Shown piece by piece: positions 2,590 through 9,442 of a stretch of 53,712 bases of DNA. Location: positions 1-53,712 of the forward strand of contig JAIXWP010000031.1 in assembly GCA_027491215.1 (NCBI GenBank), given 5' to 3'. The notes below the pieces were generated by a model. That model saw nothing but the letters and a program-made list of their open reading frames with translations, made no database searches and had not been told where the DNA came from. The position numbers and the translations under genes were made by a program. How positions within the stretch are numbered: position 1 is the first letter of the stretch; every line of letters begins with the position of its first letter. This stretch comes from Flavobacteriales bacterium (lineage in GTDB: Bacteria; Bacteroidota; Bacteroidia; Flavobacteriales_D; Sanyastnellaceae).

Positions 2590-2747
2590 ATTGGGATTCG
2601 AGATTCGGAATTCAAGATTCGGGATTCGGAATTCGGAATTCGATTATTGAGAATTGAAAATTCTCAACACTCCACTGATCTTTTCAATTACCTTAACTCC
2701 CAAATAATTTCGAATTTCGAATTTCGAATTTCGAATCGAGAATCGAC
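2590..2747. repeat. Two opposed 7-bp repeat arrays
   Basis: Right after the stop codon of the preceding gene, 2590-2644 holds about eight 7-bp units close to ATTCGGA (some ATTCGAG, ATTCAAG, ATTCGGG). At 2706-2747 there are six units in the opposite sense: four AATTTCG, then AATCGAG and AATCGAC. The two arrays are roughly inverted copies, about 60 nt apart, and could fold as one long imperfect hairpin. The array ends 2 nt before the stop codon of the small gene on the other strand, so the whole convergent intergenic space is repeat. Confidence 0.8.
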
Positions 2748-2749
2748 AA

Positions 2750-2974
2750 CTACCCGCTCTTGCGCGCATATCTTCTCGATTGTCGAGTTGTACATTTTAC
2801 ATTAGTGAGATCGCCCTTTGCCGCACGCATGCGCTTTTTAGCCCATCGCTGCGACTTCTTGTTCATGTGACTACGTTCGGTTTGAGTCATTCTACCCTTC
2901 CGGGTTTGAGCGTTTGCCGGCATCGAAGCCACCGCAAACAATACGACAATGAGGGTTACAATTAGATTCTTCAT
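2750..2974 (-). CDS. Small, very basic secreted protein
   Basis: 74 residues from the ATG at 2974. This start is chosen over an upstream ATG at 3001 because it begins a clean signal peptide (MKNLIVTLIVVLFAVASMPANA, cleavage after ANA), and a GGAGG-like stretch lies about 12 nt before it. The predicted mature chain of about 51 residues has 18 Lys or Arg and only 2 acidic residues, one cysteine and no hydrophobic core. I do not recognise a family. A periplasmic or extracellular protein that binds nucleic acid, LPS or another polyanion is possible, but this is inference from charge alone. The gene is flanked by heptamer arrays on both sides. Confidence 0.6.
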   Translation of the reverse strand: MKNLIVTLIVVLFAVASMPANAQTRKGRMTQTERSHMNKKSQRWAKKRMRAAKGDLTNVKCTTRQSRRYARKSG

Positions 2975-3026
2975 CTTAGCTAGGTTTCCTCCGCAACGCA
3001 TCTAGTCAAGAAATATTGCAAAACTC

Positions 3027-3155
3027 AATGACAAGAGACAAATGACAAGAGACAAATGACAAATGATCTCGGCTTTGCCGAGAACAAACCCCCAGCTCCA
3101 AACCCCAAACCCCTAACCCCAAACTCCAAACTCCTAACCCCAAACCCCAAACGCG
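3027..3155. repeat. AATGACA array, 32-bp stem-loop module and AAACCCC array
   Basis: Three repeat parts stand in a row. 3027-3068 holds six 7-bp units, alternating AATGACA and AGAGACA and ending AATGATC. 3067-3083 is a perfect stem-loop (TCTCGGC, loop TTT, GCCGAGA). 3100-3155 holds eight 7-bp units in exact register, mainly AAACCCC with TAACCCC, AAACTCC and AAACGCG variants. The segment 3058-3089 recurs, inverted and with one mismatch in 32 bp, at 8693-8724. Confidence 0.85.
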
Positions 3156-3156
3156 A

Positions 3157-3498
3157 TTAACACTCCACACTCACCGCGTCGACTTGACCTCCCATGGGGG
3201 CGTTGTGCTTGGTGATGCGGACAATGTGCTGGGTGGCACTGGGGAACTCTTGCTGAAGACGATGCTTGATCTTATATGCGACTGCTTCAATCAACTTGTA
3301 TGGCGTACGCATCTCTTCGTAGACAATTTCTTTTACCAAAACGTAATCAACAGTTTGTGATAAATCATCTGCTAATGCCGCGGCTAAAAAATCAAAGTGA
3401 ATGGTGATGTCTACTGAATACTCACCACCAATCACTGTCTCTTCTGCCCAACATCCGTGATGAGCATATACTTGAATATTATGAAGGCGAATGATCAT
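3157..3498 (-). CDS. folB: Dihydroneopterin aldolase
   Basis: 113 residues, close to the usual 115-120. FolB converts 7,8-dihydroneopterin to 6-hydroxymethyl-dihydropterin and glycolaldehyde in folate synthesis. The N-terminal pattern IIRLHNIQVYAHHGCWAEE is typical, the conserved Glu-Tyr region appears as GGEYSVDI, and TVDYVLVKEIV with the later LIEAVAYKI segment fits the tunnelling fold. It is the last gene of a tight minus-strand run (pyrH, frr, gltX, folB), 9 nt after gltX. Its stop codon lies 1 nt from the AAACCCC array. folC, a later step of the same pathway, is at 23.7 kb. Confidence 0.9.
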   Translation of the reverse strand: MIIRLHNIQVYAHHGCWAEETVIGGEYSVDITIHFDFLAAALADDLSQTVDYVLVKEIVYEEMRTPYKLIEAVAYKIKHRLQQEFPSATQHIVRITKHNAPMGGQVDAVSVEC

Positions 3499-8591: not shown

Positions 8592-8594
8592 AAT

Positions 8595-8748
8595 ATTCTT
8601 AATTCAAAATTCGAAATTCTCGATTCTCAAAACACTGTCGATCAAGTGCATTTAATTTGTCGCAGCCACGCTGCAGCGCGGCTCTGCTTGTCGTTTGTTC
8701 TCGGCACAGCCGAGATCATTTGTCACTTGTCATTTGTAATTTGTCATT
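8595..8748. repeat. Heptamer arrays with stem-loop modules between scoA and scoB
   Basis: 8595-8629 is five 7-bp units of ATTCGAA type. 8662-8687 is GC-rich and contains the palindrome CGCTGCAGCG. 8693-8724 is the inverted copy of 3058-3089 with one mismatch, including the stem TCTCGGC/GCCGAGA with a 3-nt loop. 8714-8748 is five 7-bp units (TGTCATT type, the complement of AATGACA). The last unit contains the TGA stop codon of scoA at 8744-8746, so the element abuts the gene with no spacer. Confidence 0.85.
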
Positions 8749-9442
8749 GTCTCACCGTTCTCTGCTCTATTCGCTTCTCATAATTTTCACCTTTGAAAAT
8801 GCGATGAACATAAATACCTGGTGTGTGAATCATATTCGGATCAAGCTCTCCTGGCTCTACCAATTCCTCTACTTCTGCAATTGTAATCTTCCCAGCCATT
8901 GCCATTAATGGATTGAAATTTCTCGCAGTAGCACGGAATACCAAATTACCCATGGTATCGCCCTTCCAGGCCTTTACAATCGCATAATCCGCATCGAAGG
9001 CATATTCCATCAAATAATCTTTTCCGTTGAAATTTCGCACCTCTTTGCCCTCGGCTACTTCTGTGCCGACGCCTGCTGGTGTGTAGATCACTGGCATTCC
9101 ATATCCCGCAGCCATACAGCGTGTAGCAAGCGTTCCCTGTGGCACCAACTCTACTTCCAATTCACCACTCAACATTTGTCTTTCAAACTCTGCATTCTCT
9201 CCCACATAAGAACTGATCATCTTTTTGATTTGTCTGTTTTGCAACAACAATCCCAATCCGAAATCATCAACGCCCGCATTGTTGGAAATGCATGTCAAAT
9301 TTTTGACGCCATTCTTTACCAACTGTGCAATTGAATTCTCTGGAATCCCGCATAGACCGAAGCCTCCAATCATCAGAGTCATTCCATCTGAAATTCCCAA
9401 GCAAGCTTCTTCTGCGTTTTTGACAACCTTATATATCGGCAT
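8744..9442 (-). CDS. scoA: 3-oxoacid CoA-transferase subunit A
   Basis: 232 residues. The alpha subunit binds CoA and partners ScoB. The family pattern [13 protein letters not shown] follows a short N-terminus, then [18 protein letters not shown], and [27 protein letters not shown]. The C-terminus [14 protein letters not shown] is a normal family ending; its stop codon is inside a heptamer repeat unit. It begins 14 nt after the PBP1a stop, so it may be read through from that gene or from a promoter within it. Confidence 0.92.

Follow-up and report, generated by a model that had tools for sequence, protein, structure and literature searches.

Heptanucleotide repeats have been described from Xanthomonas and Nostoc, where the units are GGGAATC and GGGGA(C/T)T (PMC4692102, in excerpts that also mention such repeats in Calothrix), and TAACTGA is a further reported heptanucleotide repeat (excerpt of PMC4679880). 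In Xanthomonas, 90% of the arrays lie between the same open reading frames (ORFs) in two species and, according to the excerpts of PMC4692102, are generally not found with mobile elements; that they keep their positions speaks against frequent movement in Xanthomonas. S23p forms homopentamers built from four-helix bundles, according to an excerpt of PMC4990558, which gives no known function for the protein. The same excerpt describes 23S rRNA intervening sequences (IVSs), e.g., that of Coxiella, as an S23p-family gene inside terminal inverted repeats, termed a selfish element. Heptamer repeats and IVS elements are already known separately, and we found no report in the open-access literature (PMC) that links S23p/IVP genes to heptamer arrays.

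Here, a physical link between these two orphan observations is described, in Bacteroidota as well as on plasmids of cyanobacteria. Through this link, S23p acquires a role that can be tested and the heptamer repeats a gene that may be their source; it also points to mobile elements of a kind lacking a recognised transposase. The stretch of DNA analysed as a whole (the window; 53,712 nt) is contig C20 of a draft flavobacterial genome of 3.17 Mb in 150 contigs (G000, the study genome; completeness given as 99.95%), whose nearest named relative found by scoB is Flavobacteriales bacterium D4_MAG_00033, a Bacteroidota MAG (90%). It holds two copies of a hairpin module that probably belongs to a selfish intergenic element, in a copy without its gene; the full element would be centred on an S23p gene with inverted heptamer arrays. 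These copies share with the described heptanucleotide repeats 7-base units with fixed and variable positions, an intergenic location and closeness to the 5' neighbouring ORF. They differ in the tie to S23p, no gene family being tied to the repeats in the excerpts of PMC4692102 and PMC4679880, and in the hairpin, which is a feature of one lineage here, unlike the repeats reported in those excerpts. Gene-bearing members of the family (at C97 and C137, below) resemble IVSs in having an S23p gene between inverted repeats, whereas they lie between protein genes, and elements of this kind often have heptamer arrays as ends and occur dispersed as copies lacking the gene. The window copies are filed as a variant of the heptanucleotide-repeat kind and not as IVSs, since an IVS lies in an rRNA gene and is excised by RNase III, and these copies are sited between protein genes and away from rRNA; Rfam gave no match in the window at gathering thresholds.

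A dispersed composite of heptamers and a hairpin

The first copy starts with an array of the heptamer family F1 at 3027..3066 (+), in which AATG is followed by ACAANNN units with GAG, ATG, GAG, ATG and ATG at the variable positions. A hairpin, TCTCGGC-TTT-GCCGAGA, is placed between in-phase heptamers at 3067..3083 (+), and heptamer, hairpin and ACAAAC together form the 32-bp module at 3058..3089 (+). From the other side, an F3 array of GTTTGGN-like units (3085..3152, -) reads from the stop codon, at 3157, of a gene that we take to be folB; the F1 and F3 arrays converge at the hairpin. The second copy, at 8693..8724 (-), is the inverted counterpart of the first and differs solely in a loop base (TGT vs TTT; hairpin at 8699..8715, -). 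In its F1 array (8716..8748, -), the first TGA doubles as the stop codon of the minus-strand gene scoA (8744-9442). Both the inverted 32-bp recurrence with one loop mismatch and the heptamers ahead of it at each site, as an earlier note on this DNA had claimed, read as described, with AATGACA/ACAANNN units present at both. Next to the second copy lies another dispersed repeat (8594..8692), made of ATTCNNN-type units and a hairpin rich in GC, and a stretch of contig C1 matches it at 87% identity over 100 bp. This ~100-bp repeat was also seen at L011 (3433-3531 and 2533-2622). The composite fills the scoB-scoA intergenic region (8592..8743, 152 bp), which is 11-14 bp long in the closest relative. 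Elsewhere in the window, an F2 array at 2595..2642 (+) begins just past a stop codon (ORF end 2589), and an F2-type array lies at 2706..2749 (-).

A search of the study genome with AATGATCTCGGCNNNGCCGAGA, allowing up to three mismatches, returned 67 rows (the palindrome often being scored once per strand), compared with none for the same pattern read backwards. Four heptamers followed by ACAA gave 138 overlapping matches and, as a backwards control, none. Such recurrence greatly exceeds what chance would give. Counting each hairpin once, with at most one stem mismatch, we found 37 in the stretches of this genome that were read. Of these, 35 are embedded in ACAANNN arrays, all in one orientation; the exceptions are L027, where a second hairpin accompanies a normal one, and L035, which is without heptamers. 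The junction around embedded hairpins is near-constant (GACAAATGA-hairpin-ACAAATGAC), and the heptamers on either side come into register once 18 nt (an A and the hairpin) are removed. The earlier note had read the module as one composite element, naming a total of only two copies as contrary evidence; at about 35-37 dispersed copies, the composite family is upheld and the two-copy case falls away. In most of the 35 copies, the hairpin is followed by ACAAATG and not by a T tract, and a Rho-independent terminator was rejected for this reason.

At up to two mismatches, the hairpin pattern gave 38 rows in the study genome and one to three rows in 16 of 298 other genomes of the order, and it was absent from two congeners (299 order genomes searched, the study genome included). 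Among the genomes searched, the F1 and hairpin family is restricted to its own species. The exact composite pattern matched nothing in the genome_contigs or viral_contigs collections, in which the records of this or very near genomes may have been left out.

Across 67 F1 arrays, the three bases after ACAA were ATG (177 units), GTG (52), GGG (46), GAG (41), ATT (37), ATA (18), TTG (14) and rarer others. F1 arms converge at some sites (e.g., L045, L036 and L032), which gives the terminal inverted repeats expected of a MITE, and many copies have a single F1 arm. Convergent pairs are frequent in the Xanthomonas repeats too, according to the excerpts of PMC4692102. The same unit order was found at k=5 in 19 pairs of arrays, where shuffles gave 7.1 on average and at most 16, and at k=4 in 84 pairs (shuffle maximum 86), a modest excess over shuffles that is weak evidence for copying between arrays.

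A scan for period in 403 kb of the study genome found 11 arrays at lag 7, eight at lag 14, three at lag 9 and none at other lags, and lag 6 was nearly as frequent as lag 7 in the related genome G002 (12 vs 14). Period 7, an intergenic location and several families per genome are also features of STRR-like heptanucleotide repeats, STRR being the name of those in Calothrix. A longer composite of ~220 bp, consisting of an F1 array and a GC-rich hairpin segment, was seen at L014 (2809-3024) and L039 (2968-3182), 80% identical. In addition, several contigs of G002 start or end in long ACTANNN arrays (L189, L190, L193, L217 and L235), so heptamer arrays probably break assemblies.

S23p genes between inverted repeats

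Comparison of array loci in the study genome showed related copies of a single gene next to the arrays on contigs C97, C137 and C68; this gene belongs to PF05635 (23S_rRNA_IVP / TIGR02436 four helix bundle protein). Its closest solved chain in the PDB is 2RLD (1.7e-20), with a weak match to XCC0516 of Xanthomonas campestris (2GSC; 0.17), and PHROGs gave no match. An S23p protein of a relative scored 7.8e-05, below the model cut-off, against the Avd protein of diversity-generating retroelements (NCBIfam NF033474), and the study genome's own S23p had no match to this model. Such a retroelement was rejected as an identity, the study genome being without a reverse transcriptase (PF00078, RVT_1: 0 matches; 3 of 14 control genomes positive).

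All seven PF05635 genes of the study genome lie at intergenic repeats. Inverted repeats flank six of them, five times as heptamer arrays, and these six also passed the inverted-flank test described below; the seventh, on C68, is at a contig end. The gene on C97 has F1 and hairpin in both arms and is the one intact F1 S23p gene of the assembly. The C137 gene, with F1 on both sides, contains an in-frame TAA, and the C68 gene, cut by the contig end, has F1 on the only side present. Those on C84 and C67 lie between inverted F2 and inverted F3 arrays, respectively, C22:28717 has arrays of family F4, and C22:3451 has another inverted repeat that is not heptameric. With F1 arms around S23p genes (and the hairpin at C97), the F1 and hairpin family has gene-bearing members; neither window copy (3058-3089 or 8693-8724) is accompanied by an S23p gene.

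The association extends to related genomes. A PF05635 survey of 60 genomes, including the study genome, gave 142 matches in 40 of them, and 56 loci (57 hits) were examined: seven from the study genome, 29 that ranked first in their genome, and 20 chosen by genome and not by flanks. For each gene, the 450 nt to its left were compared by alignment with the reverse-complemented 450 nt to its right, with mismatched flanks as control. Median scores were 21.0 for S23p and 9.5 for mismatched flanks, and 33 of the 57 S23p hits exceeded the control 99th percentile (19.34). By comparison, one of 266 called genes in unselected stretches of the study genome was above this cut, itself part of the S23p gene C22:28717, as were none of 1,153 called genes in G002 (S23p boundaries being taken from HMM domains and those of control genes, limited to genes with full flanks, from gene calls). 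Period 7 was found on at least one side of 32 of the 57 hits and on both sides of 16, period 8 in seven, and other periods from 4 to 12 in no more than two. The remaining 24 hits fell below the cut, a few of them at contig ends, and all seven loci examined (of nine listed) in the single-contig genome G038 were among these. A global test of S23p-heptamer co-evolution over all loci was not significant (Mantel r 0.05, p 0.16).

Heptamers read from S23p flanks were also followed into whole genomes. Three-unit patterns of CGTGGTN and TCCGGCN, both from S23p flanks of genome G013, each matched 127 times in G013; in its congener G032 they matched 29 and 13 times, respectively, and in the other 11 of 13 genomes searched not at all (overlapping matches inside one array being counted). 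Backwards, CGTGGTN matched 21 times in G013 and three times in G032, and TCCGGCN not at all. As predicted, both heptamers taken from S23p flanks prove dispersed in G013.

The same arrangement occurs on plasmids. A tblastn search of plasmids gave 40 records with S23p, mostly from Nostoc, Calothrix and other cyanobacteria, and 22 of these loci were analysed (21 cyanobacterial, one from Azospirillum). Scores above the control 99th percentile were obtained for 10 of the 22 with 450-nt flanks, nine with 300 nt and seven with 150 nt; period 7 was present on at least one side of 13 and period 8 in five. On three plasmid stretches, two of 101 ORFs were above the cut, one being an S23p gene, and a further Nostoc S23p gene on these stretches scored only 10.0. 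For example, S23p is flanked by matching inverted heptamers GGGAACA on a plasmid of Nostoc sp. C052 and by inverted GGGTGTA on one of Calothrix brevissima. In Nostoc edaphicum, an S23p gene with inverted heptamers lies between ribonucleotide reductase genes, and in Anabaena sp. 90, one lies between cas6 and cas4. Inverted heptamers also flank the Azospirillum plasmid gene, with looser units.

Placement, empty sites and possible movement

None of 60 F1 blocks lay within an ORF called by the hexamer-based gene calls made in this analysis. The 5' end was nearer to an ORF than the 3' end in 41 of the 50 blocks having both neighbours, and among these 50 it lay within 40 nt of an ORF in 33, vs two for the 3' end. 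Thirty-three array starts are no more than 60 nt away from the end of a same-strand ORF; of these, the array's own TGA is the stop codon in six (including scoA in the window), a TCAAT start falls within 3 nt of the stop in eight, and the called ORF enters the array in five. The ATTCNNN family of the study genome had a suggestive polarity of the same kind (18 of 23, p 0.011; one of three in G002), and other heptamer families were sparse.

Among 43 array-bearing gene pairs, seven had both orthologues in 1.65 Mb of the congener G002, and five of these were syntenic. Three of the five are clean empty sites in G002 (187 vs 48, 151 vs 33 and 152 vs 14 bp), and at the remaining two the comparison is not straightforward (643 vs 1,669 and 832 vs 656 bp, study genome vs G002); across 82 gene pairs without arrays, the median length difference was -0.5 bp. 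Synteny held for five of seven array-bearing pairs and 82 of 85 others (p 0.045), numbers that are too small to use. By eye, no clear target-site duplication was present at the three clean empty sites. At L027 (~2607-3439), a small gene by F1 arrays and two hairpins seems, also by eye, to be inverted relative to G002.

S23p genes with the same heptamer occur at different loci. In a comparison of 34 loci, the F4 S23p gene of the study genome was closest to that of G002 and vice versa, and both have ACTANNN arms, whereas their neighbours differ, one lying by what we read from its translation as an acyl-ligase-like gene and the other by a presumed aspartyl-tRNA-synthetase-like gene. Likewise, the F1 S23p genes are at three loci that match over the gene and arms only. 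At the scoA|scoB junction, an S23p gene was found in seven of 76 named Bacteroidota loci having both genes. Flavobacterium xanthum and a Rufibacter are among the carriers. Three of the seven passed the inverted-flank cut, and for two the match is short. This junction occurs with an S23p gene (7/76), with the gene-less F1 composite of the window, and with the 11-14 bp of the closest relative. The repeats around one scoA|scoB S23p gene (L150, 3432-3570) have, by eye, a period of 8.

Competing readings and a proposed mechanism

The alternative that survives best, though we consider it unlikely, is that S23p genes and arrays are separate things: arrays would arise by replication slippage, and S23p, mobile or not, would land or persist between them. 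Local duplication within arrays is evident (GAG-GAG neighbours: 15 observed vs 4.0 expected), polymerase slippage is proposed for heptamer abundance in the excerpts of PMC4692102, an S23p gene is missing at most arrays, and genome G040 has a perfect heptamer array of ~12 copies and no PF05635 match. Against this, both arms match each other inverted at the loci that pass the flank test, S23p genes within one genome mostly have different heptamer families, the two families tested in G013 are dispersed in that genome, and the F4 genes retain their heptamer at a different locus.

An improbable reading is that of a pure minisatellite, with heptamers and hairpin spread by array recombination only and no mobile element. 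Two contig pairs do resemble haplotypes of one locus with different array content: one such pair of contig ends differs, among other changes, by an ACAA-bounded hairpin segment, and C8 and C126 share flanks around different array interiors. Nonetheless, filled and empty sites require that arrays arrived at array-free places, and recombination of this kind accounts neither for the association with S23p nor for the hairpin keeping one orientation.

REP/RAYT systems and BIMEs are dispersed intergenic palindromes whose fuller versions carry a gene, and in this the family here is like them. The intergenic palindromes are dispersed, an outer start is frequent (CAATG directly ahead of 21 of 60 arrays without a preceding hairpin), and the inner end is regular, the ACAAATA unit being last in its array in 18 of 18 cases. 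A REP-like or MITE family moved by a RAYT or an ordinary transposase is nevertheless very improbable, as a genome-wide search for two families, Y1_Tnp and RVT_1, matched neither; the gene found here encodes a four-helix-bundle protein. For the Y1 (HUH) transposase (PF01797), there were 0 matches in the study genome and five of 14 control genomes were positive, which led us to reject REP/RAYT as an identity. The earlier note's suggestion of a mobile or REP-like family with a helper gene is thereby divided: a dispersed family exists and an S23p-family gene is associated with it, whereas no REP transposase was found. Lastly, a functional 3'-UTR element (a terminator or mRNA tail) is hardly credible, for although a same-strand stop codon precedes 30 of 33 ORF-proximal array starts and some arrays lie, by eye, ahead of hairpins that resemble terminators and have a T run, a T tract is lacking from the TCTCGGC hairpin, other arrays are upstream of genes in antisense, and the arrays are missing at the same genes in the relative (three sites).

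In the S23p-centred reading, which we prefer, the full element would be one S23p / 23S_rRNA_IVP gene (mostly ~115-140 aa) between two inverted 7-nt-repeat arrays, each reading inward from the adjacent host gene. Each element lineage would have its own heptamer, with F1 (ACAANNN) additionally carrying the 18-nt hairpin insert in this species; gene-less F1 arms or arm pairs lie chiefly directly behind stop codons. We infer that gene and arms move together, that copies with a gene gave rise to those without, and that the heptamer arrays are acted on by S23p. As a guess, pentameric S23p may bind the repeat strand, with host replication or repair performing the joining, and array length may subsequently change through 7-nt slippage, since growth by such slippage fits the runs of identical units. 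Possibly, each heptamer is read by one S23p protomer, so that a pentamer would account for both the period of seven and the arms of about five units. A wider generalisation, which we hold only tentatively, is that S23p proteins are mobilisers of transposase-free elements with inverted heptamer ends in Bacteroidota, Cyanobacteria and some Proteobacteria, that the cyanobacterial and Xanthomonas heptamers are gene-less remains of these, and that 23S rRNA IVSs are members that landed in rRNA.

Two minor observations concern gene content. S23p genes were seen between CRISPR genes on three cyanobacterial plasmids (L344, L345 and L351), twice as cas6|S23p|cas4 and once as cas10|S23p|Cmr3-family, where they are perhaps insertions rather than CRISPR components. 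In addition, at one further scoA|scoB junction among the loci surveyed, a PD-(D/E)XK gene (PF13366) lies between inverted short repeats (L089, 3405-4000; score 33.0), and another in G002 lies between weak inverted repeats (C22:19496-19846, L224/L267) with a score of 14.5, under the S23p cut; PD-(D/E)XK genes may be another type of gene carried by elements of this class.
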